This document shows, in pieces, positions 9,384 to 24,686 of a DNA stretch of 64,000 bases; the stretch's first letter is position 1, and each line of letters begins with the position of its first letter. The stretch is taken from contig NZ_MWVI01000050.1 of assembly GCF_002087295.1 (NCBI RefSeq), positions 248,001-312,000 of the forward strand, written 5' to 3'. This DNA comes from Vreelandella lionensis. Lineage in GTDB: Bacteria; Pseudomonadota; Gammaproteobacteria; Pseudomonadales; Halomonadaceae. The notes beneath the pieces were generated by a model. The model did not search any database, had not been told where the DNA came from, and saw only the letters and a list, made by a program, of their open reading frames with translations. Both the position numbers and the translations under genes were made by a program.

Positions 9384-10320
9384 ATGATTGAATTGCGCCA
9401 TTTGCGCACGCTGCTGGCCCTACGCGAAACCGGTTCTCTTGTAGAAGCCGCCGAGCGGGTGCACTTAACGCAGTCGGCCCTCTCACACCAATTGAAAGAT
9501 CTGGAAAGCCGCGTGGATAGCGCGCTGTTTGTGCGTAAAACACGGCCGGTAGAGTTTACCCGGGCAGGGCTGCGGCTGTTGGCGCTGGCTGATGAGATTC
9601 TGCCGGAGGTCCGCAAAGCTGAGCGGGACCTGGCCCGATTGGCGGGCACCGGGCAGGGGCGGCCACATGGCCATCGAGTGCCATAGCTGTTTTCAGTGGC
9701 TCATGCCCACGGTGGATTACTTCCGCGACCACTGGCCGGAAGTGGAGATCGATATTCCCAGTGGGCACCACTTTGACCCGCTGCCTGCGCTTGCCCGCGA
9801 GCAGTTGGACTTGGTGATCACCGCCGACCCACAACCCTTGGATGGTGTTCACTATGTGCCGCTGTTTCGCTATGAGGGGCTGCTAGCGGTTGCCCGGCAA
9901 CACAGCTTTGCGGGCCAACCCTATATTGAGCCTAGCGCGCTGGCCGAGGAGACACTGATCACCTACCCAGTGGAGCAGTCGCGCCTGGATGTCTTCACCC
10001 AATTTTTGGCCCCAGCCAACGTGCGCCCTAAAGAGATTCGCACCGCAGAGCTGACGCTTATGATGATGCAGCTGGTGGCCAGTGGCCGCGGCGTGTGTGC
10101 GCTGCCCAACTGGGCGCTCACGGAGTATTTAGAGCGCGACTACGTCAGCGCGGTGAAGCTAGGCGAGCACGGCATCTGGAGCACGCTCTACGCCGCTATT
10201 CGTGAGGAGTCGGCGGAAGCGCCGTGGATGCAAGACTTTTTGCGCACCGCCAAGGAGACCTCCTTTGCGGTGCTATCAGGGATTAACCCGGCGAACCGCG
10301 ACGAGGAATCAACAGCGTAA
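9384..10320 (+). CDS. metR: LysR-family regulator MetR (one frameshift)
   Basis: Homocysteine-responsive activator of methionine genes. The N-terminal winged HTH reads LRHLRTLLALRETGSLVEAA, then LTQSALSHQLKDLE. The effector domain carries the MetR hallmark IECHSCFQWLMPT, which in this family is the start of the homocysteine-sensing domain. The two halves are in different frames; one extra base around 9658-9665 (GGGCGGCCAC) would join LAGTGQGR to HMAIECHSCF. Its position divergent from metE is the classical arrangement and implies control of that gene. Its stop overlaps the convergent kinase gene end by about 38 bp. Confidence 0.93.
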
Positions 10321-11905
10321 AGCGTGCGCCGCCTGGCGCAGGGCTGCTGTCCACGGTGACACTACCACCGTGGCCAGCCATGATTTTCTGCACAATCGCC
10401 AGGCCAAGGCCGTAGCCACCAGAACTGCGGGCGCGGCTATCGTCCAGGCGCGCAAAGGGTTTGAAGATATCGGCTCGGGCATCGAAGGGAAGTCCCGGGC
10501 CGTCATCTTCTACATCAATACGCACTAGGCGCGGCTCATCCCAAAGGCGAATCACCACTTGAGATTTGCCGTAGCGGCAAGCATTGCCCACTAGGTTTTG
10601 TAGTGCCCGCTGCAGGTAGCGCGGCTCTGCCAACAGCTCAATATCAGGCCCCGGCACCAGGGTTAAGGTCTGCCCGCTGTGCAGCGGTGCTAGCGTATCA
10701 ATCACCCGCTCCGCCATAGACCGGCACTCCACCAACGCCATTTCCAGCTCTGCGCCATTGACCGTTTCGCCACCTAGGCGCGCATAGGTCAAAATTTCGT
10801 CCACTAACTCATCCAGTTCAGCAATATCTGCATCAATACCCTGGAGCTGACGCTGAATGGCAGGCTGGTCGGTCATGTCCTCGACCATCTGTACCGCAAA
10901 GCGGATGCGTGCCACCGGGGTGCGTAGCTCGTGGGAGACAGCGCGAATCATCTCTTGCTGACCACGCAGCAGGCTCTGCACTTGGTTCGCCATGCCATTA
11001 AAGGCCATCCCCAAGCGCCCCAGAAAGTCGCCGCTTTCGACGTTGACGCGGGTTTCCAACCGGCCACTGGCAATACGGGTTGCCGCCAGCTCTAGCCGCG
11101 CCATGCGCGACTCGATGCTGCGCATAATCAGATAAATGATCAGGCTTAGCACGACCATCAGCGCCACGAGCAGCGGCAAGTGCAAATTGAGCGGCAGCGT
11201 ATCGCCTCGGGAGATAGGCCCAGACTGAAGCCACTGGTCGGCCTCTCCCGAGGCATTAGGCAATTGATAAAGTAGCGTAATCGATAGCTTGTCTGTCACT
11301 AGCCGGGTTATCACACCCCCGAGCGTTAGCTGAAACTGCTGTTCGGTGGTCAAGTCGTCGGGAAGTGCGTTGAGCAGGCTTAACGCCAAACTGCCGGGGC
11401 GTAACTCGGCCAGCGCCGCCAGCCGCTCTTCCTCTGGCATGTCGGCCAGCCACTCACCCAACAACACCATGCTGCCCTGCCACTGGCGCTCGCTCCAAGC
11501 GTCAAACGTGGCTTCCAGCATCCATAGCTCTCCGCTGGTGTTAGCCGTGGGCAACCGCTGGCGCAGTTGCCAAGGCTCCTCTGCCACTAACACCGTGCCC
11601 CGCTCAATTCGCGACCGCTCGAAATAGCCTAACTGGGCGTCGTTCATGTCGCGCAGCACCAGCTGCATGCCTAGCTGCTCGGAAAAATCGCCTAACAGCG
11701 TTTCACGCTCATCTATGGGCACGCTGGCAAGCTGCTGTGTCATTAATGACATAGGCAGCGCGGCGAGCTGTTCGCGATAATCTTCCCGGCGCACCTGCTC
11801 TATAAAAGAACGCCCCCCTAGCGCAATAAAAAACACCACGCACAGCGCTAGGCCCAGCAGTAGGTAGAAGCGTAAAAACGAGCCGTGGCTAAGCACTCGC
11901 CGCAT
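10283..11905 (-). CDS. rstB: RstB-like sensor histidine kinase
   Basis: Membrane sensor kinase of 540 residues, paired with the upstream response regulator. Order: membrane helix (FYLLLGLALCVVFFIAL), a ~210-residue periplasmic sensor region, second helix (LLVALMVVLSLIIYLIM), HAMP linker, HisKA domain with phosphoacceptor AVSHELRTPVARIRFA, and HATPase_c with N-box VGNACRYG, G1 EDDGPGLP and G2 GYGLGLAIV. The kinase core resembles E. coli RstB. The periplasmic input domain is not one I recognise, so the signal is unknown. It is 17 bp downstream of the regulator gene and surely cotranscribed. Confidence 0.85.
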   Translation of the reverse strand: MRRVLSHGSFLRFYLLLGLALCVVFFIALGGRSFIEQVRREDYREQLAALPMSLMTQQLASVPIDERETLLGDFSEQLGMQLVLRDMNDAQLGYFERSRIERGTVLVAEEPWQLRQRLPTANTSGELWMLEATFDAWSERQWQGSMVLLGEWLADMPEEERLAALAELRPGSLALSLLNALPDDLTTEQQFQLTLGGVITRLVTDKLSITLLYQLPNASGEADQWLQSGPISRGDTLPLNLHLPLLVALMVVLSLIIYLIMRSIESRMARLELAATRIASGRLETRVNVESGDFLGRLGMAFNGMANQVQSLLRGQQEMIRAVSHELRTPVARIRFAVQMVEDMTDQPAIQRQLQGIDADIAELDELVDEILTYARLGGETVNGAELEMALVECRSMAERVIDTLAPLHSGQTLTLVPGPDIELLAEPRYLQRALQNLVGNACRYGKSQVVIRLWDEPRLVRIDVEDDGPGLPFDARADIFKPFARLDDSRARSSGGYGLGLAIVQKIMAGHGGSVTVDSSPAPGGARFTLLIPRRGSPG

Positions 11906-11922
11906 TAGGCGACCTCTCTTGT

Positions 11923-12680
11923 TTAACTGTCTTTAACAAACAGATAGCCTTTACTGCGCACGGTTTTAATACGGTGCGGCTGGTTAGGGTCGTCGCCAAT
12001 TTTTGGGCGAATACGCGATACGCGCACATCAATAGAGCGGGCTTGGCCGTCGTAATTAATGCCTCGCAAGTCGCTGAAAATCTCTTCGCGGGTCAGCACA
12101 CGGCCAGCATTACGCGCTAGCAGCCACAGCAGGTCGAATTCTGCGCTGGTCAGGTCGATACGCTCACCGGAGAGCCAGGCTTCCCGCGTGGCGTTATCAA
12201 TCTCCAGGTTCTCAAACTTAAGGCGCATTTCACCATCGGGGGCTGGCGCGTCCGCGCGACGCAGAAGCGCACGCATACGGGCTAGCAGCACGCGGGGCTG
12301 CACCGGTTTGGGCACATAGTCATCCGCGCCCATTTCTAGCCCGAGCACTTGATCAAGGTCATCGGGGCGGGCAGTCAGCATCATGATGGGGCCAGCAAAG
12401 TTGGGCCGCACGCGGCGGCAAATGGCCAACCATCTTCACCGGGTAGCATCAGATCCAAAATAACCAGGTCCGGCTGCAGCGTTAAAATACGATCTACGCC
12501 TTTGGCACCATCCGCTTCTAGCGTCACTTGAAAGCCGTTTGCTTCCAGATAATCGCGGGTGAGCTCGGCCAAGCGCTGATCATCTTCAATAATCAGCACA
12601 TGATCCTGGTCAGGGTAGTCGGGAGTTACCGATTCCTGCGCCCCAAGTGCTTGAAATTGCTGTTCCAAATGATCTACCAT
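11923..12680 (-). CDS. rstA: RstA-like OmpR-family response regulator (one frameshift)
   Basis: Response regulator with a receiver domain (acidic pair in LIIEDDQRLAEL, phosphoacceptor in LVILDLMLPGEDG, Lys in DDYVPKPVQP) and a C-terminal winged-helix DNA-binding domain (ARSIDVRVSRIRPKIGDDP, IKTVRSKGYLF), close to RstA. The frame breaks at about 12426: GGTTGGCC should read GGTTTGGCC, a lost T, joining GEDG to LAICRRVRP. An unusual ~25-residue N-terminal extension precedes the receiver domain. It is first gene of the operon with the kinase; its promoter must lie in 12681-12900. Confidence 0.88.
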
Positions 12681-12916
12681 CCTTTTTCTTCACTCCGCTT
12701 AGGCAGTTTGTATTATCACCCGCTCACCCTGTGCAAAAGCAGGTTGTGGATAGCTTCCAGGATACCTTAAAACCTTGCAAACGCCTGCCCCTTGATTAAC
12801 GTTGCGTATGCATCCTAGTTAGAGGGCGTCTTGAGCAACTTGATTCTTCCACCACCAAGCGCTAATGTGAGGTGGCGAACTGTCGACAATCTGACAGCAG
12901 GAGATCGCCATGGGAG

Positions 12917-13051
12917 ATGGCAAAGCCCAAAAGTGTCATTAAGCGTGTCTATGTACCAACGCAAGTGCGCGACCTGCCCAACGGAGAGAAGTTAAAAATT
13001 CCCGGGCACTATAAAGCGCCGCCCAGCGAAAGCAACGATTCGCTCGATTAA
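12917..13051 (+). CDS. small hypothetical protein (44 aa)
   Basis: Short open frame encoding a basic then acidic peptide (MAKPKSVIKRVYVPTQV at the N-terminus, ending SESNDSLD). No domain is recognised. Support: sensible amino-acid composition and an excellent terminator 17 bp downstream that otherwise has no gene to serve. Against: the start is ambiguous. The Shine-Dalgarno AGGAGA at 12899-12904 is better placed for an ATG at 12910, which opens a 10-codon frame; with the 12917 ATG the spacing is 12. A lost or gained base between the two ATGs is possible. Confidence 0.45.
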   Translation: MAKPKSVIKRVYVPTQVRDLPNGEKLKIPGHYKAPPSESNDSLD

Positions 13052-13067
13052 CGATGCGCAGATAAAG

Positions 13068-13099
13068 AAAAAGGCAGGGCTGTCGAGGCCTGCCTTTTT
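13068..13099 (+). terminator. intrinsic terminator
   Basis: AAAAAGGCAGG (13068-13078) pairs with CCTGCCTTTTT (13089-13099) around a 10-nt loop. The T-run suits rightward transcription from the small ORF, and the A-run lets it serve the leftward gene at 13124 as well. Confidence 0.88.
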
Positions 13100-13123
13100 A
13101 ATACGCCTTCATGGTTAAGATGG

Positions 13124-13303
13124 CTATCCCTTGGGGCCGAACAGGAGCCAAGCAATCAACCCCACCAGGGGAAACACCAGTAGCGCGATAATCCATAGCA
13201 ATTTGGCAAGCCCGCTAGCCGAGCTTTTTGCCACTTTAACGATGGCCCATACCACAATGATGAGCCAAATAAGACCGAGCAAACCACCGACTTCAATACC
13301 CAT
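13124..13303 (-). CDS. PLDc_N-type small membrane protein (59 aa)
   Basis: Two hydrophobic helices (LLGLIWLIIVVWAIVKVA and LLWIIALLVFPLVGLIAW) joined by a short basic-polar loop SSASGLAK and ending LLFGPKG. This two-helix pattern with a W-I-I-x-L-x-x-P-x-x-G second helix is typical of the phospholipase-D N-terminal-like (PLDc_N) family of small membrane proteins, whose role is unknown. An AAGGAG six bases before the ATG supports the start. It reads towards the terminator at 13068-13099. Confidence 0.8.
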   Translation of the reverse strand: MGIEVGGLLGLIWLIIVVWAIVKVAKSSASGLAKLLWIIALLVFPLVGLIAWLLFGPKG

Positions 13304-13374
13304 AGCAACTCCTTAGCGTGTTGGCATCGATGAGTCTTCAGCTAAGCACATGACTGAAGCGCGCACAAGTCGCC

Positions 13375-13890
13375 CTAAGGCTCTGGCAAGCGCAGCACCA
13401 TCTCCCCGCCGCGAATCTCAATCGCTAGCTGGTTTAAAAAGCTCATCCCAAGCAGCACCGTATCGCGCTCCATGCCGGGGCTGATAGAGCCCTGCACGTT
13501 GTTCATCTAAATACCGCCCAGCACTACTTCATCTAGCTGAGTCAGATTACCCTCGACACGGCCATTGGCGGTGTTAAACCAAGCACGACCCCCTGGCGCT
13601 AAGCTTAGCCTTTTAGCTAGCTCACTAGGCACCGCTACATAAGTGGCGCCGGTACTCAACAAAAACGTCACAGGCTCACCGTTGATCTGACCCGGTGCTT
13701 CAAAATGCCCTGCCCGGTTACGCTTTAGTGTTACCGGGCCGTTGTCTGGGGAGGTATTCATGATGTGCACGTTAGGGTTCAGCATGTCGTCAAGACCGCC
13801 CGGAATCCACCACGTTCCTACCGCCATTAACAGCACCCAAAATAGCAGCATCATCACAATGCCGCCCTGCTGTGGCCTGTGTCTTGCCAT
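13375..13890 (-). pseudogene. retropepsin-like clan AA aspartic protease, catalytic Asp lost and amber stop
   Basis: Single-pass membrane-anchored aspartic protease family (TIGR02281-like): N-terminal anchor MMLLFWVLLMAVGTWW, then a retropepsin fold. The catalytic DTGAT motif is present only as LSTGATYVAVP: the aspartate is serine (codon AGT). In addition TAG at 13507-13509 interrupts the frame after DEVVLGGI, yet the same frame continues as a good family C-terminus (NNVQGSISPGMERDTVLLG, then FLNQLAIEIRGGEMVLRLP) to a stop at 13375. Both changes are substitutions, unlike the indels elsewhere. Either the gene is decaying or the protein has become a non-catalytic fragment. Confidence 0.75.
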
Positions 13891-13906
13891 TATTCACCTC
13901 ACGGCA

Positions 13907-15252
13907 TCAAGAACTTTTCCAGGCCACTGCCGCCTCACGGCCACGGCGCTCATTTCCGCCTACGCAAATTAGCATCGCCGCAATAAATAGCCCAACACAT
14001 AAAAGAATAGACGCTTGAAGGCCAATCAGCGTTTGCAACACCCCTAACATGACGATGCCCAGCACCCCCGCCAGTTTGTTTGCCAAGCCCCAGAAGCCAA
14101 AAAACTCCGCTGATTTTTCCAGCGGTGAAAAGACACCCACCAGCGCGCGGCTGGCCGACTGGCTAGAGCCTAAACTCAACCCGGCTAAGCAGCCGACCAC
14201 TAAAAACAAGTGCTGTGCCTGCCACTGCCACCCAAACTGCTGATTGAGCCACTCGGTTAACGCCGGCGTTGCCCAAATCGCGACAATCGCCGCAACCCAG
14301 AGAGCAAGTGTCATTTGATAAGTGTGTTTAGCGCCCAGTTTATCTTGTAAAAACCCAAATCCGATGGCTCCCGCAGCAGCGGTGACCTGCACAATAATAA
14401 ACATGATATTGCGCACGCTCTCATCCCAGCCAATCACCTGGGCCCCGTAGATAAAAGCAAAGGCGATAATGATGTAAACGCCTGCCATCGAAAATAGAAG
14501 TGACACTAAGAAAACGCTTAAGTCTTTGAAGTAGCGCAGCTCATGAAAAGTACCCAAAATCCGCTGCTGGGCAATTTGCCGATAAGAAACGCCATGGGGT
14601 TTAGGTACGCCGCGCTCTTTCAGCCATAAAAAAGTGGGGATCGCCGCCACTAAAAAGAACCCTGCTGCAAAAGGTCCTACCCAGCGAATACGCTCAAAAT
14701 TGTCAGCCGTTGCCTCTCCTAGCACAATCAGCGTAAACCCTGCGGCCAATAGGCCGCCAATATAGCCCAATGCCCAACCAAAGCCGGAAATTTTACCCAG
14801 CGCATCGGCGGCCCTAACTCTGGCAGAAAAGCGGCAATAAACGACTCGCCCATGGAGTAGGCGTAGTTTGAGAGTACGATTAACAGAAGGCCTAACACCA
14901 CGTAGCCGGGCTCAACGAAGTAGAGCATGGCCGTGGTTGCCACCGTCGCCATGTAGCTAAACAGAAGAAAGCGCTTTTTTTCAGCGCGGTAATCCATGAT
15001 GGCGCCACACAGGGGAGCGCTGATCACCACCAGTAAATAACTGATGGCTAAGGCTAAGCTCCATAAAAAGTTAGCTAAGCGGTAGCCATCGTTACGCTCA
15101 CCGACAATTACGGTAGTAAACAGCTCACCAAATACCACGGTAATAATCAGCAGCGTATACGCTTGATTGGCAAAATCGAACATCGCCCAGCCGAAAATCT
15201 CACGGCGTGAAGCATAGGGAGACGCGGCCATTGTGGGGGTTGTGGGCGGCAT
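13907..15252 (-). CDS. MFS permease, UMF1 family (one frameshift)
   Basis: Multi-pass transporter of the UMF1 (autophagy-related Atg22-like) branch of the major facilitator superfamily. The hallmark is the first helix GWAMFDFANQAYTLLIITVVF; about twelve hydrophobic segments follow. The gene is split near 14805: the sequence fits if one base is missing in the GGGCCGCCGATG context, giving LGPPDALGKISGFGWALG across the join. Substrate is unknown for bacterial members. The start at 15252 has AAGAGAG 8-11 bp upstream. It is divergent from the 15396 operon. Confidence 0.85.
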
Positions 15253-15395
15253 AGTGTGCTCTCTTAAAAAGAGGAATAAGACTACCAGCTAGCTGTGATG
15301 CATCGTTATGGGTAGCGTTAACAGAATAAAGATGACATCGCCACAAAGTTAATCTAACTTTACTGGATTCCCTAACCACAGGAGGGCGCAATTAA

Positions 15396-16184
15396 ATGGC
15401 GTATGGCACCGTTATAAAAAAGCGTTTACTAGCCACTCTTTCACTCTTGCTAGGGTGCGCTTTTGCTATTCTGCCGTTGTCTGCTGACACCCTTCCCTCC
15501 TCTCTTGCCTCCCTGACATTTAGTACCGAAGAGTACCCACCTTACAATTATCGCGATGGCGGCCAAATGGTTGGCACGTCGGTGAACCTCTTAGAAGACA
15601 TGCTAGCACATGCGGAGACCCAGCTAGATCGCAGCAATATTCGCTATTATCCCGGGGTGCGTGGCTATGACCTCGCGCTCAGCCAACCCAACACCGTGCT
15701 CTTTTCGACGACTCGCACGCCCGCCAGAGAAGCACAGTTTCACTGGGTTGGCCCGATTGCCCAGGACCAAGTAGTGCTGCTTCCCCGTCGCAATACGCCT
15801 CTTCACATCCGCTCTCTTGACGCTGCGATTGAGCAAGGGCTGAGCGTTGCCGTCATTCGTGAAGATATCGGCGCTCAGGCACTGGTAGAAGCCGGTTATC
15901 CAGAGGCGCTGATTAGGCCTGCTATGGACAACCGCAGCGCACTGCATATGCTGCTACATGAGCGAGTCGACCTATGGGCCTACAGTGCCGATGTCGCGAA
16001 GTGGATTGCCGAGCAGGAAGGGTATTCCAAGGACATTGTGACGCCTCTCTACACACTCAGCGAATCTTATTTATACTTTGCCATCAATCTTGGCACAGAC
16101 CCGCAGCTAGTCGCCGAATTGCAGCACGCTTTTGATAGTGTCACTTCCTTCTCAGCGGCCACACAGGTAGGTAGTGATGGTTAG
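15396..16184 (+). CDS. periplasmic solute-binding protein, SBP_bac_3 type (first of a tandem pair)
   Basis: Secreted binding protein of the amino-acid-type family 3. A signal peptide (basic MAYGTVIKKRLLA, then hydrophobic core, cleavage probably after LPLSA) is followed by the classic entry strand TFSTEEYPPYNYRDGG. The middle carries YYPGVRGYDLALSQ and STTRTPAREAQFHWVGP, which recur in the next gene. No ABC permease or ATPase genes are nearby; instead a second paralogue and a diguanylate cyclase follow with overlapping ends, so a sensing rather than uptake role is inferred. ATG 15396 has AGGAGGGC upstream. Confidence 0.85.
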   Translation: MAYGTVIKKRLLATLSLLLGCAFAILPLSADTLPSSLASLTFSTEEYPPYNYRDGGQMVGTSVNLLEDMLAHAETQLDRSNIRYYPGVRGYDLALSQPNTVLFSTTRTPAREAQFHWVGPIAQDQVVLLPRRNTPLHIRSLDAAIEQGLSVAVIREDIGAQALVEAGYPEALIRPAMDNRSALHMLLHERVDLWAYSADVAKWIAEQEGYSKDIVTPLYTLSESYLYFAINLGTDPQLVAELQHAFDSVTSFSAATQVGSDG

Positions 16185-16914
16185 ACAGCTGTTCTCCCCC
16201 GCAAAGCCTTACTGGGTACTGGTTGTCCGAGGTGTATTGTTTAGCGGACATACCAGTAGCATAGCATTCGCCCAGGCACCGTCGCTCACCATCAATACGG
16301 AAGAGTACCCGCCTTTTAACTATCAAAACGATCAAGGCATTGTGGTGGGTATTGCCACCCAGCAGTTGCGTAATGCGCTGCGCCATGCAGGCATTGAGGC
16401 TCGCTTTCGGATACTGCCCTGGGCACGCGCCTATACCGAGGCACGACTGCGCGAGCATCACTGTGTTTACTCCACCACGCGCACTGCCGCTAGAGAGCCA
16501 CAATTTCGCTGGGTGGGGCCGCTGGTGATTAACGAGTGGTCAGTCTTTGGCCTAGCAGAACGGCAACTGTCATTGGCACAGCTTACTGACCTACACCATT
16601 GGCAAGTAGGTAGCTTTCGAGAAGATGCCATAGGCGATTATGTGGAAGAACGGGGTATTAACGTACTCCGCGCGCCTACCGAGCGTGAAAACATGGCACG
16701 ACTGGCCGCCGGGCTACTGGATGTTATCGTTACCGGGCGCGCTACTGGCGAGTACCTTGCCGAAGAGCAAGGGCTCAAGCTTGAACACCTGCTCACCTTC
16801 TTTTATGCGCCCCTTTACCTCGCCTGCCACCCAAGCGTCGAGATGGACACGATTAACCGCCTTCAGCGGCATCTTGACACCTCGTTTGTTACCCCAATGG
16901 AGTCGATGCCGTGA
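16177..16914 (+). CDS. periplasmic solute-binding protein, SBP_bac_3 type (second of a tandem pair)
   Basis: Paralogue of the preceding gene: shares TEEYPPFNY, PWARAYTEARLRE and STTRTAAREPQFRWVGP, so the pair arose by duplication of a binding-protein gene. The N-terminus is a signal peptide ending near IAFAQA. It overlaps the end of the first gene by 8 bp and its own stop overlaps the GTG of the diguanylate cyclase, a three-gene translationally coupled unit. ATG 16177 has AGGTAGG upstream; a GTG at 16174 is the alternative. Ligand unknown; sequence divergence between the two suggests different ligands or one as an accessory. Confidence 0.82.
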   Translation: MVRQLFSPAKPYWVLVVRGVLFSGHTSSIAFAQAPSLTINTEEYPPFNYQNDQGIVVGIATQQLRNALRHAGIEARFRILPWARAYTEARLREHHCVYSTTRTAAREPQFRWVGPLVINEWSVFGLAERQLSLAQLTDLHHWQVGSFREDAIGDYVEERGINVLRAPTERENMARLAAGLLDVIVTGRATGEYLAEEQGLKLEHLLTFFYAPLYLACHPSVEMDTINRLQRHLDTSFVTPMESMP

Positions 16915-18176
16915 GTGTCGCCAAGCCCCCATTAGCCAGCGGCCGTTTAACGCTCAAGCAGGCACTACTTACCCTGCTGATTGCGATTGTCATTAGCCTT
17001 ATTGCGGGCAGCATTGAGCTACTCGGCCACGCCAGCAGCATGCGTGAAAATGTGCAACAGCGCACCTCACAGCAGCTCGCTATTGTTAATGGCGCGGCGG
17101 CGGAAGCCCCCTTCCAGCTTAACCCTGACTTAGCGCACCAAATCGCTTTTGGTTTATTTAGCAATAGCGAGATTTCCCAGGTGGCCATTCGCGACGACTT
17201 TGGGCGCGCCCTGGCGGAGTTCTACCCTACACAGCCCAATGCATCCAACTGGCTCAGCAAGCAGCTATTTGGGGATATTGTTTATCATGAGATGCCGCTG
17301 CGGTATTACATGGGTAGCGATACCCCAGAAGCGACAGTCGGTGAGATATCGCTCTCCCTGGATACGGTGTACTTGACCCGAGAGTTCTTAGCCCGTGGTT
17401 ATGCGGTGGTAGGAAGAAGCATTTTGGAGGCTTTTTTACTCAGTGGTCTAGTGATTGCGTTATTTCATATTTTTATTACGCGGCCCTTGTTAAAAGTGCA
17501 CGCGGCGATCACGCAAACTGACCCAACGCGGCCAGGCCAGTGGCCCAAACCCACTCTGAAGGGCCATCACGATGACGAGCTTGGCCACTTGGTGGAAAGC
17601 TTGGATCACCTGCTGAATGAGTTTCAGGCAGGGTTAGCGCAGCGTGATCATTTGCACCAGCTTTCCACATACGATGGTTTAACCGGCGTGGCCAACGGTC
17701 GCCACTTCGATATGTTTTTAGCGCAACAGTGGCAGTGGGCAACGCGTGCTAAGCAACCGTTATCGGCTATTTTTATCGATATCGACAATTTTAAAGAGTT
17801 TAACGACCACTATGGTCATAGCATGGGCGATGACACCCTGCGTGCAGTAGCCACGGTACTCAATCAGTGTATCGACTCAAGCTGCGACCTGCTGGCCCGC
17901 TACGGCGGTGAAGAGTTTATCTGTGTACTGCCTGGCAAAGATGCCAATGAGGCGATGAATATTGCCAACTTCCTGCGCCAAGCCATTCTGTCACTGGCTA
18001 TTCCACATGCCTACTCCAGCCCTCATTCGCACCTAACGGCTAGCATGGGCATTGCCACCACGACACCTGAGCAGCCGCTTAGCCCTGATGACCTGCTCAA
18101 CAAAGCCGATCAACAGCTCTACCATGCCAAACGACGCGGCAGGAACCGCATCGAGATACACGAACGCCCGGCGTAG
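16911..18176 (+). CDS. membrane diguanylate cyclase with periplasmic sensor region
   Basis: Makes cyclic di-GMP from two GTP. Order: membrane helix (~residues 20-40, LTLLIAIVISLIAGSIELL), a ~115-residue periplasmic domain, second helix (~165-180, LLSGLVIALFHIFI), HAMP-like linker, and a GGDEF domain (~250-415). The catalytic motif is RYGGEEF at ~330, with IDIDNFKEFNDHYGH for metal/GTP binding, so it should be active. The residues where the RxxD inhibitory site would lie read SSCD, so product inhibition at that site is probably absent. GTG start overlaps the preceding stop. The upstream binding proteins are its likely input partners, as with NspS-MbaA in Vibrio. Confidence 0.88.
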   Translation: MSVAKPPLASGRLTLKQALLTLLIAIVISLIAGSIELLGHASSMRENVQQRTSQQLAIVNGAAAEAPFQLNPDLAHQIAFGLFSNSEISQVAIRDDFGRALAEFYPTQPNASNWLSKQLFGDIVYHEMPLRYYMGSDTPEATVGEISLSLDTVYLTREFLARGYAVVGRSILEAFLLSGLVIALFHIFITRPLLKVHAAITQTDPTRPGQWPKPTLKGHHDDELGHLVESLDHLLNEFQAGLAQRDHLHQLSTYDGLTGVANGRHFDMFLAQQWQWATRAKQPLSAIFIDIDNFKEFNDHYGHSMGDDTLRAVATVLNQCIDSSCDLLARYGGEEFICVLPGKDANEAMNIANFLRQAILSLAIPHAYSSPHSHLTASMGIATTTPEQPLSPDDLLNKADQQLYHAKRRGRNRIEIHERPA

Positions 18177-18190
18177 CCGGGCGTTCGTGT
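18158..18190. terminator. strong hairpin at the end of the diguanylate cyclase gene
   Basis: ACACGAACGCCCGGC and GCCGGGCGTTCGTGT form a perfect 15-bp stem with a 3-nt loop that contains part of the TAG stop. There is no T-run after it, so factor-dependent termination or mRNA 3'-end protection is possible. Confidence 0.6.
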
Positions 18191-18210
18191 AGGCATCAAT
18201 CGGCTCTACG

Positions 18211-18357
18211 TCACAGCAACCAGTGGGCAATGACCGCTGACAAGCCGACCACCATCGCAGTGACTACCGCAACGGTGACCACCCGATCTAACCAACGGTC
18301 GAAGGCAGCTCCTTTTGGCTGCCTTCGCGTTGCCCCGTGACGTCCCTGTCGAGCCAT
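18211..18357 (-). CDS. small single-helix membrane protein downstream of the BCCT gene (48 aa)
   Basis: Short frame with a basic N-terminus (MARQGRHGATRRQPKG) followed by one strongly hydrophobic helix (VTVAVVTAMVVGLSAVIAHW), a positive-inside single-span topology. It lies 44 bp downstream of the BCCT transporter in the same direction, suggesting a small partner. A GTG at 18363 with GGAAA upstream is another possible start. I do not recognise a family. The N-terminal coding region contains a 9-bp inverted repeat (GAAGGCAGC/GCTGCCTTC), which could instead mean part of this is a transcript hairpin. Confidence 0.5.
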   Translation of the reverse strand: MARQGRHGATRRQPKGAAFDRWLDRVVTVAVVTAMVVGLSAVIAHWLL

Positions 18358-18401
18358 CAGCACGCTGTTTCCATAGGTGCTTCCTCTATCGAAGCCGTTG
18401 T

Positions 18402-20026
18402 TTAGCTATTCATACGCCGATTGACCACGCTGGGCGCACGGCGCAGACGCTCCTCTTCCCCTAACTGCTCCGCCTCAAAGGCATCAGCCCCCACGGGGGT
18501 CTCACCGTGGCGACGGTAGAGCTGGGTCAGCATCGCTTTACGATCCGCACGCAGCTCGCGTACCAGCACAATCACCATCATATACAGAATAAAGGTAAAC
18601 GGCAGCGCTGACAGCACAGCCGCAGACTGCAAGCCGGAAAGACCGCCCGCCACGATAAGCGTAAGGCAAATCGCCGCGATCAGCACGCCCCATACCACGC
18701 GCTTATAGAGTGGTGGATTGATGGAACCATTATCCGTCATCTGCGCCACAATATACGAAGCGGAGTCTGCTGAAGTCACTAGGAAAATAAAAATCAGCAG
18801 CATGGCCACCACGGAGAGCACGCCCGAGAACGGCATCAAATCAAACATCTCAAACAGGGCGACGGTGATGGTTGGCTTCGGTGGCCGCAGCCAGGCCTAC
18901 ATCGGTGCCGTTCAGCTCCAGGTTAAGCGCCGCACCACCAAATACGCCGATCCACAAGCACGCCAAAAGCGGCGGCACAAATAACACCCCAAATACGTAC
19001 TCTTTAATAGTACGCCCGCGAGACACACGTGCCACAATGGTGCCCACAAAGGGCGACCAGGCAATCACCCAAGCCCAGTAGAAGATGGTCCAGCTACTGG
19101 CCCACTGATTGTCGCTATAGGGCGAAATCCGCAGACTCATTCCAATAAAGTTTTGCAGATAATCGCCTATACCGAGAGTAATGGTCTCCAGGATGGCGAT
19201 AGTAGGCCCTGTGACCAGCACATAGAGCATTAGGCCGATACATAGCACCATATTTAAGTTGGATAGGCGCTTAATACCTTTATCTAACCCTGACCAAGTA
19301 GATGCCATGTAGGCGCAGAACATCACAAATAGAATGACAAACTGCCAAAGCCCATTCTCTGGCAAGCCAAATACCGCGTTAAGACCGCCATTCATTTGTA
19401 ATACGCCAAGTCCTAGCGACGTCGCCACCCCCATTACGGTTGCAACCACGGAAATACATCCAACCAAGAAGCATAAGGACGTACGAGAGGATGCTTAGCC
19501 GTCACCGACGAGAGTACGGAAGACACCAAGCCTGCCTGTCCCTTCCGGAACTGGAAGTAAGCAACAACCAGCCCCACCACAGAGAATGCCGCCCATTGGT
19601 GAATACCCCAGTTAAAATAGCTGTACTGGATGGCATAGCGTGCAGCCGCTTCGCTTTCTGCAGGGACATCTCCGTAAGGCGGACTAATGTAAGGCGTCAT
19701 AGGCTCTGCCATGCCGTAAAACACCAGGCCAACACCAAAACCTGCCGCTAATAGCATGCTGATCCATGAGAAAAAGCTGTAGCTGGGCGTACTGTCCTGG
19801 GGTCCCAGACGTACTTTGCCGTATTTACTGAGCGCAAGGCCGATCAGGAACACCACAAAGCCAAATACAGAGAAGAGATAGAACCAGCCAAATAGCTCGG
19901 TAATCGATGTGAGGGCGGCCTCAGCAGCATTACCAAACGCGACAGGAAACGCGGCCCCACAATCACTAAGACGAAAATAATCACTGCCGATGCGATAAAC
20001 ACCGACTTCCCTCCATGATTTGTCAT
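18402..20026 (-). CDS. BCCT-family betaine/carnitine/choline transporter (three frameshifts)
   Basis: Sodium- or proton-coupled uptake of a quaternary ammonium compatible solute or precursor, fitting a halophile. Family marks: SWISMLLAAGFGVGLVFYGMA, GIHQWAAFSVVGL, the substrate-box region FYWAWVIAWSPFVGTIVARV and FLVTSADSASYIVAQM. Breaks: near 19955 (a lost G: GTGGGGCC), near 19455, and near 18868 (an extra C in AACCATCACC); repairing them joins VLVIVG-AAFPVAFG, YAS-VGCISVV and TEAN-ITVALFEMF. ATG 20026 has AGGGTGG upstream. The exact substrate cannot be told from sequence alone. Short cytoplasmic tail. Confidence 0.88.
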
Positions 20027-20265
20027 AGCACCACCCTGGTTAATGAAAATACTGGTTAATAAATGCGTGGATTTATAAAAACACGGCACTTTATTTTAGT
20101 GCGCTCAATTAAATCCTAACATCCGAGGCTAGCAATCGCATGTTAAGGGCTTAATACAGCAAAATTAGCACCAACTGATATATTAGCTTCAACTCTCGAA
20201 AAGAAGCAGTGAACTTGCTCGCTCTGCTATGTTCCAATGGTGGCAAACGAACGATGGAGGCTTTC

Positions 20266-20616
20266 ATGCCACAGATGAATCGCGACCAACGCAATGCCGC
20301 TTGGCAAGCTGCTAACCAGTGGCGCGCCCGTGCTGCACAAACGCAGCCAAATGGGCTAATGGGCAGCTTGAAACTGTTGTTGACGTGGCTAGCGTTTGGC
20401 GCACTGATGATTGTTGGCGTTGTGCTGGGGCTATTTTTCCTGCTGATTGGCTGGGCGATGATGCCGTTTGTGCGCCATAAGATGAAAAAGCGTATGGAGC
20501 AGATGCGTGCCGATCACGCTCAAGACATTGGCGGCGGCTACGCTGGCGATCAGCCATCTAGGCAGCACGATGCTCTGGAAGGTAGCTACGAAGTAAAAGA
20601 CGAGACACGCCGTTAG
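20266..20616 (+). CDS. small membrane protein of unknown function
   Basis: Protein of 116 residues: a polar N-terminus (MPQMNRDQRNAAWQAANQWR), one long hydrophobic segment that could be a hairpin or two short helices (LLLTWLAFGALMIVGVVLGLFFLLIGWAM), then a basic stretch HKMKKRMEQMR and an acidic, Gly-rich tail. I do not recognise the family. ATG 20266 is preceded by GGAGG with 6-nt spacing; an upstream ATG at 20209 would add 19 residues. Its stop overlaps the convergent AEC gene stop. It is divergent from the BCCT gene. Confidence 0.75.
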   Translation: MPQMNRDQRNAAWQAANQWRARAAQTQPNGLMGSLKLLLTWLAFGALMIVGVVLGLFFLLIGWAMMPFVRHKMKKRMEQMRADHAQDIGGGYAGDQPSRQHDALEGSYEVKDETRR

Positions 20617-21507
20617 GGCGGCGGCTGGATCCAGGCGAAGGCCGCCGCCAGCGTTAGCGGCATGACGATCAAACTTCCCAAGTTACCGATCAACACCAAC
20701 GACGCCACCTTATGAGGGGCGAGCTTGTACTGCTCTGCGACCAAGTAATTCAATACGGCTGGCGGCAACGCGGCAAATACTAACAAGGTGGCTGTTTGCA
20801 ACGGATTCAGCGGCAGCAGCCACATGAGCGGCAGCGCAATCACCAGCCCAGAGAGCGGGCAAAGCACCGCCCCCAGCAGCCCTGTTCGCCAGTCGCTAAA
20901 GTCGATTTCCAGCAGGCGCACGCCCAGCGCAAATAGCATTAGCGGAATGCACACACCACCCAGCATATGCATGGCTTCCAGCAGCCAGCCGGGTAACGCT
21001 ACGGCCCCCAACATTAACCAATAGCCCCGCAACGCTTGCAGCCACAATCGGCATACGCAGCATCCGCCACAGCGAAGTACGCGGGTCTAGAATGAAAAGC
21101 CCCACCAAAAAGTGCAGCAGCATCCCAAAGATAACCCCCACCACCGCCGCTGGCAGCGCTTCCGGCCCAAAAGCCAGCACCAGCAGCGGCACCCCCATAT
21201 TGCCGGAATTATTGAACATCATTGGCGGCAGGAAGACCTTACTGTCCAACCCAAGCCACTTCACCACCGGCCACAGCACTAACCCTGACCCCAACACCAC
21301 CAGCGCAGCAGCGCTGGCGAGCCAGGCGTACTCCGCCAGGGGCGCTTGGCGGTCGGCTAGCACGGCAAACACCAGCAGTGGAACAAACAGCTCCATATTT
21401 AGGGTGTTTAAACTGCGAATATCGGGAGTGCGGAATCGTCCGTAGGCGGCACCGCTACCGGCAATCAAAAACACCGGCAGCAGCGTGGCTAAAATTTGAC
21501 CGATCAT
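20613..21507 (-). CDS. AEC-family (auxin efflux carrier-like) permease (one frameshift)
   Basis: Ten-helix permease of the AEC superfamily, whose bacterial members move malate, malonate or other small organic acids. N-terminal half: LATLLPVFLIAGSGAAYGRF, MFNNSGNMGVPLLVLAFG (the conserved N-N-S-G-N motif before the family's unwound helix); C-terminal half: GGVCIPLMLFALGVRL and LPPAVLNYLVAEQY. The halves join near 21020 if one G is removed from a run of five (GTTGGGGGCC), giving LLVNVGAVALPGWLLEAM. The gene has no obvious partner; the substrate is unknown. Confidence 0.85.
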
Positions 21508-21575
21508 TGACCAGCCACCTCGCTGCGAGGCCGCACAGGAAAAGGAGTGCGCATTGTGTCGTCCTTGTTTTTATT

Positions 21576-21604
21576 GGAACTGCTGTTATGGGAACTGCTG
21601 TTAT
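21576..21604 (+). repeat. short tandem repeat upstream of glnE/AEC intergenic region
   Basis: GGAACTGCTGTTAT occurs twice (21576-21589 and 21591-21604) in the 188-bp spacer between the AEC gene start and the glnE end. It could be a direct-repeat operator for the AEC gene or a chance duplication; nothing else is seen in this spacer. Confidence 0.4.
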
Positions 21605-21695
21605 TAAAACGATTGATATGGGAGCAGCCGTTTTAGGCCAGTCGTTATCAGGCTAGCTTTTTACTGATGCTACTGAAAAACGCCCTGCCCGCCAA

Positions 21696-24686
21696 TCAAG
21701 GTTCCAGAAAACGCTGCCACAGTGCGGTCACTATCTGACGGTGCTCCGCAAACTCTTTAACCTGCCCTAACGCCTTTTCACCGGTCAACGCCACGCGGTG
21801 AGTACGACTGCGGTAGGCCAGGTAAGCCTCGCGTAGCTGCTCAGCCTCCACGTGGGTGATGTGCCCGCTCTCGGCCAGGGTTTCCAAAATGCGAATATTA
21901 TCGCTATAGGCGATCTGCGCGGGCGTTTGATGGGAGAGCGCGAGCACGGCGTACTGGCAGAGAAACTCGATATCCACCATGCCGCCTGCATCGTGCTTCA
22001 AGCTAAACGTGGCGTCTGTGCTGGCATTTTCGCCATCGCCCCGCTCAGATTTGGCGCCCTCGCCTTTCGTGCCCAAGTGATCACGCATTTTATGGCGCAT
22101 GCTCACCACATCATCACGCAGCGCCTGCGGGTCGCGCTCGCGGCGTAAAATCGAGCCACGCAGCTCGTCAAACTTGTCGGCCAGCGCCTCACTGCCCGCC
22201 ACCACTCTGGCCCGCACCAGCGCCTGATGCTCCCAGGTCCAGGCATTTTGATGCTGATACTCGGCCAACGCGTCCAGCGACGTGACGAGCAGCCCCGCAT
22301 TCCCTGATGGACGAAGGCGCATGTCCACTTCATAAAGACTGCCCGCCGGGGTTACCGCAGTCAGCAGATGAATGATGCGCTGGCTCAGGCGAGTGAAAAA
22401 CACCGGCGTATCCAAAGGCCGAGGGCCGTCGGTACTGCCTTTACCGTCGTTATCGTGCAGGAACACCAGATCCAGGTCAGAGCCGTAGCCCAGCTCAATG
22501 CCGCCCAGCTTGCCGTAACCAATAATCAAAAAAGCAGGTTCGCGGTTGTTACACCCCGCAGGCGCACCGTGCTTGCGAGTGACATGCTTCCATGCCATCG
22601 CCAGCACCGCGTCTAAAATAACTTCCGCGATATAGGTTAAGTAATCGCTTACTTTCATAAGATGACGCGTACCGGCCACATCCGAGGCGGCCACGTGCAG
22701 CATCTGCGCATGCTTGAACACCCGCAGTGCTTCTAGCTGCGCTTCTTCATCGTCCTCGGGTAAACGGTTGAGCGTTTGACGCAATTCGTCGGCAAGCCGC
22801 GATTTATCGGCGGGCGTGTAGAGCGTATCAGGGGTTAACAAATCATCCAGCAGGATGGGGGAGCGTGCCAGCTGTTCAGCAATCCAAGGGCTCGCCGAAC
22901 ATAGCCGCATCAAATGCTTAAGGGGATGCGGATTTTCGCGCAGCAGCGCCAGATAGGCCGTGCGTCGTAGCACTGCCTCGATCAACGGCTGCACCCGAGC
23001 CAGGGCCGTGTCCGGCGTATCGCTCTGCGCCACGGCAGCCAGTAGCAGCGGCATCAGTGCATCCAAGCGCTCAAAACCAATACGCTGCATGCTCTGCACG
23101 GCGCGCGAGTGATAAAGGCTTTTTAATCGTTTGAGTGCTTTTTCCGATTCGTTAAAGCCCGCTTCGCTGAGAAGGGCCTGAGCCTCATCCTCTTCAAGCT
23201 CACCGCGCCACAAGAGCCGCCACTGGGAGAGGCTGGCGTCGCTTTGCTCTTCATCGGCCTCTTCTTCAGGGTCGGCGATCACTGCATCAAAGTGCTGGCG
23301 CACCCGTTCGCGGACCTCATCTAGCTGTGCAATAAGCCCGGGCCAATCCTCGTGCCCCATGGCGAAAGCGACGCGCTCGCGGTCCTCATCATCGGTGGGC
23401 AGCATTTGGGTTTGGCGATCTTCCAGCGCTTGAATGGCGTGCTCCACATCGCGCAGGAAGGCGTAATCCGGCAGTAGCTCGTCCACCACGGTTTGAGGCA
23501 GCAGCCCAAGCTCGGGCAAGCGCTTGAGCGCTGTTTGCAGCGAGGTGACCTGCAGCTCAGTATCACGCCCGCCGCGAATCAGCTGAAACGCCTGCACCAC
23601 GAACTCCACCTCGCGAATGCCCCCCGGCCCCAGCTTGATGTTGCTCTGCATGCCTTTGCGTTTCACTTCGCGATTGATCATCGCCTTCAGCTCGCGCAGC
23701 GACTCAATGGCCCCAAAATCCAGATAGCGGCGATACACAAACGGCCGCAGGCTAGCCAGCAGCTCTTGGCCCGCGTCGATATCCCCTGCTATCGGGCGCG
23801 CCTTCAGCATAGCGTAGCGCTCCCACTCACGGCCTTGGTCTTGATAGTAGCTGGAGAGCATCGAAAAGCTGCCTACCAGCGGGCCGCCATCGCCCAGCGG
23901 GCGCAAGCGCATATCTACGCGGAACACAAAACCATCCGCCGTCATGGCATCCAGGGCGGCGATCAGGCACTGGCCAAGCTTGGTGAAGTACTCTTGATGC
24001 TCTAGCGGTTTGCGACCGCCTTCAGTCTCGCCCTTTTCAGGGAAGGCAAAAATCAGATCGATATCCGACGAGAGGTTGAGTTCACCCGCGCCCAACTTAC
24101 CCATACCCAGTACCACCAGCCGCTGAGGCTCACCATCACTGCGAGCGGCAGGCGGCCCCCAGCGGGATGCATAAAAACGCTCCAGCCAGCCAAGCGCCGC
24201 TTCGGTGCACACTTCCGCCAGCCAAGAGACCGATCGGGCGGTATCCCACATGGTGGCACCGTCGAGGCGATTTAGATCGCGCCAAACAATGCCCAGCATG
24301 CGCGCTCGACGAAAACGGCGCAGCGCCCGGTGCAGGGCATCTTCGTCCTCGGCGCTCTCCAGGGCATCATCCAACCACTGAGTCAGCGCTTCTCTGCTGG
24401 GCGCGCTATCCAACTCCCCTGCCGCATCCAGCTCGGCCAGCCAGTGGGGAAAGCGCGCCAGCGTATCAAGGGCGAAGGTGGAGATAGTGACCACTCGAGC
24501 CAGCGCTTCCCGGCGGGCAGGAGCGAGCGCCTCCCAACTGCTGGAGGGCCGCGGCTGCTTGGTCATTGAGGCGATATTATCCGCCTGGCTTAGGGCCTCG
24601 CTGAGGCGCTGCTGTGCCTGTTCGGCAGCAGGTGCAAGCGCTTTGGGAAGCGTTGTCGTGGGGAATAACGCATCATTGGTCTGCAT
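21696..24686 (-). CDS. glnE: bifunctional glutamine synthetase adenylyltransferase/deadenylase GlnE
   Basis: Controls glutamine synthetase by adenylylation and deadenylylation of a tyrosine in response to PII. The 996-residue protein has the duplicated nucleotidyltransferase architecture: N-terminal deadenylase with ELNLSSDIDLIFAF (residues ~205) and C-terminal adenylylase with IELGYGSDLDLVFLHD (~705), each followed by helical regulatory segments. Length matches the family. ATG 24686 follows GAGAGG at 5-nt spacing; a GTG two codons upstream is less likely. The long frames on the opposite strand here are shadows of its GC-rich coding sequence. Confidence 0.96.
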   Translation of the reverse strand: MQTNDALFPTTTLPKALAPAAEQAQQRLSEALSQADNIASMTKQPRPSSSWEALAPARREALARVVTISTFALDTLARFPHWLAELDAAGELDSAPSREALTQWLDDALESAEDEDALHRALRRFRRARMLGIVWRDLNRLDGATMWDTARSVSWLAEVCTEAALGWLERFYASRWGPPAARSDGEPQRLVVLGMGKLGAGELNLSSDIDLIFAFPEKGETEGGRKPLEHQEYFTKLGQCLIAALDAMTADGFVFRVDMRLRPLGDGGPLVGSFSMLSSYYQDQGREWERYAMLKARPIAGDIDAGQELLASLRPFVYRRYLDFGAIESLRELKAMINREVKRKGMQSNIKLGPGGIREVEFVVQAFQLIRGGRDTELQVTSLQTALKRLPELGLLPQTVVDELLPDYAFLRDVEHAIQALEDRQTQMLPTDDEDRERVAFAMGHEDWPGLIAQLDEVRERVRQHFDAVIADPEEEADEEQSDASLSQWRLLWRGELEEDEAQALLSEAGFNESEKALKRLKSLYHSRAVQSMQRIGFERLDALMPLLLAAVAQSDTPDTALARVQPLIEAVLRRTAYLALLRENPHPLKHLMRLCSASPWIAEQLARSPILLDDLLTPDTLYTPADKSRLADELRQTLNRLPEDDEEAQLEALRVFKHAQMLHVAASDVAGTRHLMKVSDYLTYIAEVILDAVLAMAWKHVTRKHGAPAGCNNREPAFLIIGYGKLGGIELGYGSDLDLVFLHDNDGKGSTDGPRPLDTPVFFTRLSQRIIHLLTAVTPAGSLYEVDMRLRPSGNAGLLVTSLDALAEYQHQNAWTWEHQALVRARVVAGSEALADKFDELRGSILRRERDPQALRDDVVSMRHKMRDHLGTKGEGAKSERGDGENASTDATFSLKHDAGGMVDIEFLCQYAVLALSHQTPAQIAYSDNIRILETLAESGHITHVEAEQLREAYLAYRSRTHRVALTGEKALGQVKEFAEHRQIVTALWQRFLEP

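Follow-up and report, generated by a model that had tools for sequence, protein, structure and literature searches.

A conserved operon of two solute-binding proteins and a diguanylate cyclase in Halomonadaceae as a probable split tandem Venus-flytrap sensor

A stretch of 64,000 nucleotides from Vreelandella lionensis (contig NZ_MWVI01000050.1, positions 248,001 to 312,000; here called the window) carries three head-to-tail genes for two solute-binding proteins (SBPs) of family 3 that are predicted to be exported, SBP1 and SBP2, and for a membrane diguanylate cyclase. Our analysis leads us to conclude that SBP1, SBP2 and the cyclase are a real, selected and obligate signalling unit. We consider it probable that in this one signalling unit a tandem Venus-flytrap sensor of the BvgS kind, split into two proteins, is docked on a cyclase of the YfiN type; the mechanism is one that we infer, but it is well constrained. 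In the model that we favor, SBP1 and SBP2 would be exported and would pair, forming in two pieces what BvgS, EvgS or CdgH has as its periplasmic part. SBP2 would dock on the periplasmic CHASE8/YfiN-like domain of the cyclase, in the place that YfiR has in YfiR–YfiN, and SBP1 would sit on SBP2 and modulate it. As the flytraps open or close on a ligand in the periplasm, the movement would be passed through two transmembrane helices and a HAMP-like linker to the GGEEF domains, whose response would set the output of cyclic di-GMP (c-di-GMP).

Conservation, fusion and loss across the family

The gene order is SBP1–SBP2–cyclase, with an overlap of 11 nt between SBP1 and SBP2 (8 nt if SBP2 begins at the ATG one codon downstream) and of 4 nt (GTGA) between SBP2 and the cyclase; the coordinates and reading frames of this overlapping arrangement, given in a preliminary description of the DNA, proved correct. 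The nearest named cyclase, that of Vreelandella lutescens, is 87% identical to the window's. Among 58 sampled genomes, the window's own included, 15 full orthologues were found beyond the window; all 15 consist of these three genes in this order, and the arrangement is therefore not a product of chance. Pairwise ratios of nonsynonymous to synonymous substitution rates (dN/dS) among four copies are 0.07-0.16 for SBP1 and SBP2, rough values, since many dS are above 1 and no value is defined for one SBP2 pair. A scan for promoters and terminators gave no signal clearly exceeding the shuffled level.

The co-occurrence survey that the preliminary description had proposed was run over 201 sampled genomes of the family, a strong sensor match being one with E below 1e-100. 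The cyclase-sensor profile has 51 strong matches, SBP2 is present in all 51 of these cyclase-bearing genomes and in one more (G015), and SBP1 has strong matches in 50, the same 51 minus G569, with two weak additional matches to its profile in G427 and G458. SBP2 adjoins the cyclase in 51 of 51 survey copies. The additional genome holds a joint deletion remnant in which the SBP2 core runs into the cyclase C-terminus and SBP1 is gone (L036 8005-8692); apart from this remnant, SBP2 without the cyclase was found nowhere in the 201 genomes. No cyclase copy that we examined lacks an SBP2 gene, and SBP2 is therefore the part that is not spared. At a looser threshold (E 1e-6) the sensor profile matches in 77 of the 201 genomes, and the 26 of these without a strong match hold more distant receptors in other settings; at the level of the class it matches in 16 of 369 genomes.

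SBP1 and SBP2 form a single open reading frame (ORF) in 21 of the 51 survey copies, are two genes in 29 and are reduced to SBP2 in one. The named halomonad loci (n = 46, L041-L086; the 47-locus set minus L087, from a betaproteobacterial genome), which overlap the 51 survey genomes, comprise 14 fused, 3 SBP2-only and 29 two-gene copies, the last including L050. In the fusions inspected, the second domain follows the first without an evident linker or second signal peptide. The history of these states was read from two cyclase trees, the first of 47 cyclases and the second of 60 rows (the 51 survey copies and nine named ones). Both trees have two sides: one is the window's genus, which is all two-gene, and the other holds the remaining genera, with fused copies, SBP2-only copies and the two-gene copies of Litchfieldella, Aidingimonas and G436. 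A single origin of the fusion, suggested by the 47-cyclase tree, was set aside, as the second tree puts five fused copies from two other genera outside the Billgrantia-type group. By its well-supported branches alone, the second tree requires the two-gene state to have changed once, and in its best form it needs two changes; from these trees it is possible that the fusion arose once or twice. In both trees well-supported branches impose three separate changes to the SBP2-only state, and on this reading the relatives have lost SBP1 by itself no fewer than three times. In each of the three SBP2-only genes a signal peptide runs into SBP2 at, or close to, the TEEYPP motif that both SBPs have, and the junction differs from gene to gene, as would be expected of three deletions between repeated domains.

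That the pair is fused in 21 of the 51 copies and that SBP1 by itself has been lost point to one composite sensor with unequal parts, and the fusion in cousin bacteria is a strong hint that SBP1 and SBP2 act as a pair. The preliminary description had suggested that the duplicated proteins may allow two ligands or an antagonist. In line with that suggestion, the window has one gene for each of the two proteins, as do 29 of 51 copies, and the tandem domains of CdgH prefer different amino acids (PMC5431781). We nevertheless regard it as unlikely that the two are independent receptors competing for the cyclase, ligand against antagonist, since the linker-free fusion without a second signal peptide makes free exchange of SBP1 and SBP2 impossible in the fused copies and since the loss is one-sided, falling on SBP1. 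As a statement about two separate receptors the suggestion is less likely, although binding of two ligands would still be open to a composite sensor.

The usual role of family-3 binding proteins is in ATP-binding cassette (ABC) importers, and SBP1 and SBP2 could likewise serve one encoded elsewhere, with the cyclase merely co-transcribed. NspS of Vibrio cholerae, for example, signals beside a separate polyamine importer (PMC8967002). As the preliminary description had remarked, no ABC permease or ATPase is near: none was recognised by eye among the ORFs of positions 11000-23000, a region given no family search, and a search of the window's genome for polar amino-acid permeases of TIGR01726 gave zero matches on the window's contig. 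In that genome (about 80% complete) 5 of 5 TIGR01726 permeases over the cut-off lie within 3.3 kb of another SBP_bac_3 gene, as do 59 of 59 in five complete relatives, where the nearest such permease is more than 96 kb from the SBP1–SBP2–cyclase system; the search covered TIGR01726 only, and its counts exclude matches below the cut-off, of which the window's genome has one and the complete five together have eight. A distant ABC permease, the finding that the preliminary description had named as contrary to its own view, was thus sought in the TIGR01726 family and not found, every such permease over the cut-off adjoining other binding proteins. Because, in addition, SBP2 never occurs without the cyclase in the 201 genomes bar the joint remnant, we judge the importer explanation very unlikely. 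The co-occurrence and the lack of any orphan TIGR01726 permease uphold the assignment of the binding proteins to the cyclase and not to a transporter.

The cyclase sensor domain and the two binding proteins

The cyclase matches GGDEF with 166 bits, has no EAL match in its 421 residues and aligns with the NCBIfam DgcN/YfiN model over residues 29-407, below that model's cut-off. Its AlphaFold2 model (predicted local distance difference test (pLDDT) 78.8, predicted template modelling score (pTM) 0.44) has a long helix, a four-strand domain, a second long helix, a linker and the GGDEF domain, and so contains, as predicted, the periplasmic domain between two helices that the preliminary description had proposed; the 50 matches listed in each of two structure searches with this model were all GGDEF-containing entries. 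The N-terminal half of the cyclase matches a 21-row alignment of CHASE8/YfiN-type sensors, which includes L087 and Escherichia coli DgcN, with a probability of 99.1% (HHalign), and the periplasmic part alone matches it with 89.8% (E 2e-7, profile against profile). The sensor reaches 96.6% against L087 alone, a receptor with a CHASE8 match over the cut-off that stands beside a YfiR gene.

A survey of CHASE8 gave 43 matches in 31 of 185 genomes, of which 30 loci were examined with a YfiR profile iterated from two seeds on these loci themselves. Of the 30, 23 are flanked by a YfiR gene; the seven without one in the flank include L218, which has a PhnD-like binding protein by eye. The SBP1 and SBP2 profiles have zero matches in the 30 CHASE8 loci, and the iterated YfiR profile has zero matches in the loci of the SBP1–SBP2–cyclase family (YfiB lay outside the search), its only match among the other loci searched being L087. 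Residues 61-83 are the most conserved stretch of the periplasmic part of the cyclase, and in Pseudomonas aeruginosa YfiN the mutations that abolish YfiR control or binding map to the matching segment (PMC3375315), a correspondence placed via the CHASE8 rows and E. coli DgcN, not via the P. aeruginosa YfiN sequence. YfiR, for its part, is folded like a single lobe of an ABC-type binding protein (PMC4655355).

SBP1 and SBP2 share 30% identity over 215 aligned positions (E 5e-20), in agreement with the paralogy already claimed for them, and score 24.3 and 30.0 bits against Pfam SBP_bac_3 (PF00497), just below and above its cut-off of 26.4. Residues were counted in 98 SBP2 and 94 SBP1 rows from the named and family-survey loci, the window included and some genomes present twice. 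An arginine is invariant in each protein (R111 in 94 of 94 SBP1 rows, R107 in 98 of 98 SBP2 rows), and at the position of the aspartate of amino-acid binders SBP1 has Ser (S197; Gly in some relatives) and SBP2 mostly Gly (90 of 98). In LAO/HisJ-type proteins the corresponding arginine binds a carboxylate and the aspartate an amine; on this basis the ligand is probably a small carboxylate and not a standard alpha-amino acid.

The AlphaFold2 model of one SBP1–SBP2 fusion (pLDDT 85.8, pTM 0.54) had tandem flytraps as its five best Foldseek chains, namely GlnPQ SBD1-SBD2 (two chains), BvgS, EvgS and 5gzs, the last being the CdgH structure (PMC5431781). The best single-domain match, to the SBP2 half, was the histidine-kinase flytrap 3h7m (Z 24.6, root-mean-square deviation 1.9, 205 aligned; 23.5 in the next row), and the VIA rows for the fused model mostly cover one domain. 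The membrane-proximal flytrap of BvgS adopts a closed form when no ligand is bound, and its distal flytrap is mobile (PMC4352136), a behaviour that fits an essential SBP2 and a dispensable SBP1.

C97 and C218 of SBP2 are present in 98 of 98 rows, and in the more distant relative at L091 described below, at positions where SBP1 has no cysteine, and YfiR has two conserved cysteine pairs, one of which is redox-sensitive (PMC4655355). These cysteines could mean that the SBP pair senses redox or envelope stress and not a ligand, as reported for YfiR. Both of them, however, probably lie in neighbouring strands of lobe 1, to judge from the family fold, where a plain structural disulfide is as likely, and the binding-pocket motifs TEEYPP and STTRTxxRE are conserved in both SBP1 and SBP2, which a pure redox sensor would not need. 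We therefore think redox sensing quite improbable.

Several observations weigh against a tandem flytrap docked on a YfiN-type cyclase. Operon linkage and fusion demonstrate shared function, not direct contact, and the pTM is low for both AlphaFold2 models, which leaves the relative placement of domains unsure. Pfam CHASE8 matches 2 of 16 sensor rows, the best with E 0.047 and below the cut-off, and the sensor compared directly with the N-terminal half of E. coli DgcN gives a probability of 7.5%; because these direct comparisons are weak, we describe the sensor, from its profiles, as a divergent member or a sister of the CHASE8/YfiN type. Sequence homology between SBP2 and YfiR was rejected, the SBP2 profile reaching 0.4% probability against E. 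coli YfiR, and no sequence relation between them is therefore claimed. One stop lies within the SBP2 frame of G436, and the SBP1 and SBP2 frames of L050 are broken. Some relatives of the sensor appear to lack such partners: the SBP1 and SBP2 profiles match nothing at L037-L040, and no binding-protein neighbour was recognised at the distant sensor loci L162 and L168, where the neighbours read as trp genes. Taken together, the proposal that the binding proteins report an external ligand to the cyclase is supported in part, its association of SBPs with cyclase being borne out by co-occurrence.

The active site was found intact, as described, and GGEEF is present in all 46 named copies as well as in the window. 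The inhibitory-site (I-site) motif RxxD occurs in 20 of 20 named copies on the Billgrantia/Litchfieldella/Aidingimonas side and in 0 of 27 on the Vreelandella side, the window included; the survey copies, from genomes partly shared with the named set, have it in 0 of 25 cases in the window's genus and in 26 of 26 in other genera. From these motif counts, loss of the I-site is clade-specific and not a property of the whole system. The absence of RxxD and of feedback inhibition, put forward for the window's cyclase, is accordingly in keeping with the window's genus but does not extend to the system in general. In the window's genus c-di-GMP output may possibly be unrestrained; RxxD is kept in the other genera, and unrestrained output is therefore not part of the family design.

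Related receptors and the surroundings of the operon

A genome of another family in the same class (G279) has an overlapping row of genes (L091) for an SBP, DUF6272, SiaC, GGDEF and a sensor-SpoIIE phosphatase protein. Its SBP2 relative is 43% identical to the window's SBP2 and 47% to that of L077, with the cysteines kept, and its sensor is 36% identical to the window's. We take the DUF6272 protein to be SiaB. The SBP gene stands first in the row, and the sensor here is coupled to a different output, a swap that speaks for our model. In G274 a hybrid kinase of 1202 aa has three flytraps, counted by eye, the first of them an SBP2-like domain.

Twenty distant sensor loci (L162-L181) were collected, with neighbours listed for 17 (L163-L165 left out) and Pfam run on ten neighbour proteins from nine loci. 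Periplasmic binding proteins over the curated cut-off stand at five of them, SBP_bac_3 at L166, L170 and L175, Peripla_BP_4 at L171 and NMT1_3 at L176; the neighbour at L172 falls just below the Pfam cut-off, and the tested neighbours of L173, L178 (two proteins) and L180 have no Pfam match. L177 has an SBP2-profile match of 32 bits nearby on the other strand. At L178 (2417-4316) two adjacent, similar-looking exported proteins are encoded beside a kinase-like sensor gene, another layout with paired partners. L166, L167 and L169, from one genus, each have in a row an SBP-like gene, an apparent histidine-kinase sensor gene and a response regulator, L167 and L169 resembling L166 by eye only, and a sugar-binding-protein-like gene is found in L166 and L167.

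The window's genome has on contig C72 (L093 5271-7777) a second, unrelated cyclase gene, its frame broken, followed by two paralogous SBP_bac_3 genes. A cyclase with two such genes also occurs in G029 and G005 (L221 3947-7168; L223 3753-7013), the family search having been made for L093 only, and the active-site motif of the L221 cyclase is LDGDEF. Paired binding proteins beside a cyclase seem to have arisen twice. The same genome as the window's encodes a 791-aa SBP_bac_3-PAS-GGDEF-EAL protein (L092 2710-5085), a layout like that of RmcA.

Around the operon, between positions 10283 and 20089 of the window, several genes appear by eye to be split by frameshifts (a response regulator at 11923-12680, an MFS gene at 13907-15252 and a BCCT gene at 18402-20089), with SBP1, SBP2 and the cyclase intact, and indel errors or decay in the assembly or the lineage are therefore indicated. 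The apparently split MFS and BCCT transporter genes flank the operon on the opposite strand.

Table 1. Features of the operon (window positions)
Feature	Position	Strand	Remarks
SBP1, predicted exported family-3 solute-binding protein	15396..16184	+	262 aa; membrane-distal partner in the proposed model
SBP2, predicted exported family-3 solute-binding protein	16174..16914	+	246 aa; beside every cyclase copy examined
Diguanylate cyclase	16911..18176	+	421 aa; transmembrane helix, periplasmic CHASE8/YfiN-like domain, transmembrane helix, HAMP-like linker, GGDEF domain
Periplasmic sensor domain of the cyclase	17034..17375	+	Residues about 42-155; probably homologous to the CHASE8/YfiN-type domain bound by YfiR
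Residues 61-83, top-conserved block of the periplasmic domain	17091..17159	+	Putative docking surface
GGEEF active-site motif	17904..17918	+	Residues 332-336; I-site position has SxxD instead of RxxD

Comparison with known systems and meaning

Among the papers listed by our searches of the open-licence literature of PubMed Central, none deals with the SBP1–SBP2–cyclase operon. The Halomonas cyclase DgcY (PMC12421958) was considered and is a different protein, with a six-transmembrane domain.

YfiR–YfiN (DgcN/TpbB, YfiBNR) resembles the system described here in that a GGDEF enzyme of the membrane carries HAMP and a periplasmic domain of the PAS-like (CHASE8) kind, to which the sensor here is probably related, in the periplasmic controller encoded just upstream and in the reuse of the sensor module with other outputs (PMC3375315). 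It differs in that here a pair of SBP_bac_3 proteins replaces YfiR and the sensor falls below the Pfam CHASE8 cut-off. The modularity of YfiR–YfiN with other outputs is already published, and the parts of that paper that were consulted do not describe SBPs in the place of YfiR (PMC3375315).

In NspS–MbaA of V. cholerae, the precedent named in the preliminary description, a c-di-GMP enzyme of the membrane is likewise under the control of a binding protein in the periplasm (PMC8967002), but there is one binding protein, MbaA has GGDEF and EAL where the window's cyclase has no EAL, and the ligands are polyamines. The precedent is apt in kind; ScrB–ScrC, CdgH, BvgS and YfiR–YfiN, which were not named with it, are each closer in some respect. 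ScrB of Vibrio parahaemolyticus is likewise a periplasmic signal-binding protein, in an operon with ScrC, which makes and degrades c-di-GMP (PMC10269520), but it is a single binding protein, the operon includes the signal producer ScrA and the enzyme is bifunctional. CdgH, BvgS and EvgS signal across the membrane with two tandem family-3-type domains, and the output of CdgH is a diguanylate cyclase (PMC5431781, PMC4352136). Two such tandem flytraps are found here in the fused relatives and, in the window, as two adjacent genes. Unlike those proteins, however, whose flytraps are covalently joined to the membrane protein, the flytraps here are separate from the cyclase even when fused to each other (21 of 51), and the cyclase has a periplasmic domain of its own.

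SiaABCD is compared here by its layout in P. aeruginosa. The L091 operon is similar in that it joins an SBP2 relative and the same kind of sensor to DUF6272, SiaC, GGDEF and a SpoIIE-type phosphatase; the window differs in that its sensor is fused directly to GGDEF, and no Sia gene was noticed beside its system.

Few characterised receptors are stimulated by binding proteins, their number having been termed relatively low (PMC9602780), and according to a 2022 review SBP_bac_3 is the only domain from the clan of periplasmic binding proteins to have been studied in c-di-GMP networks (PMC8846402). The system described here links two kinds of receptor that have been studied separately, the YfiR-controlled cyclases and the tandem Venus-flytrap sensors. 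We tentatively raise the possibility that YfiN/CHASE8-type receptors serve as a general socket into which various periplasmic binding proteins fit, and that plug and socket move together onto new outputs. If this is true, the plugs would be YfiR, the split tandem flytrap of Halomonadaceae and, elsewhere, single SBP_bac_3, Peripla_BP_4 or NMT1-like proteins, and the outputs would be GGDEF, GGDEF-EAL, histidine kinase and Sia phosphatase. Within one family, copies in which the pair is separate, fused or reduced by the loss of SBP1, and cyclases that have or lack the I-site, make up a natural set of variants with which to ask how binding proteins drive a cyclase, what a second flytrap contributes and what the I-site is worth.

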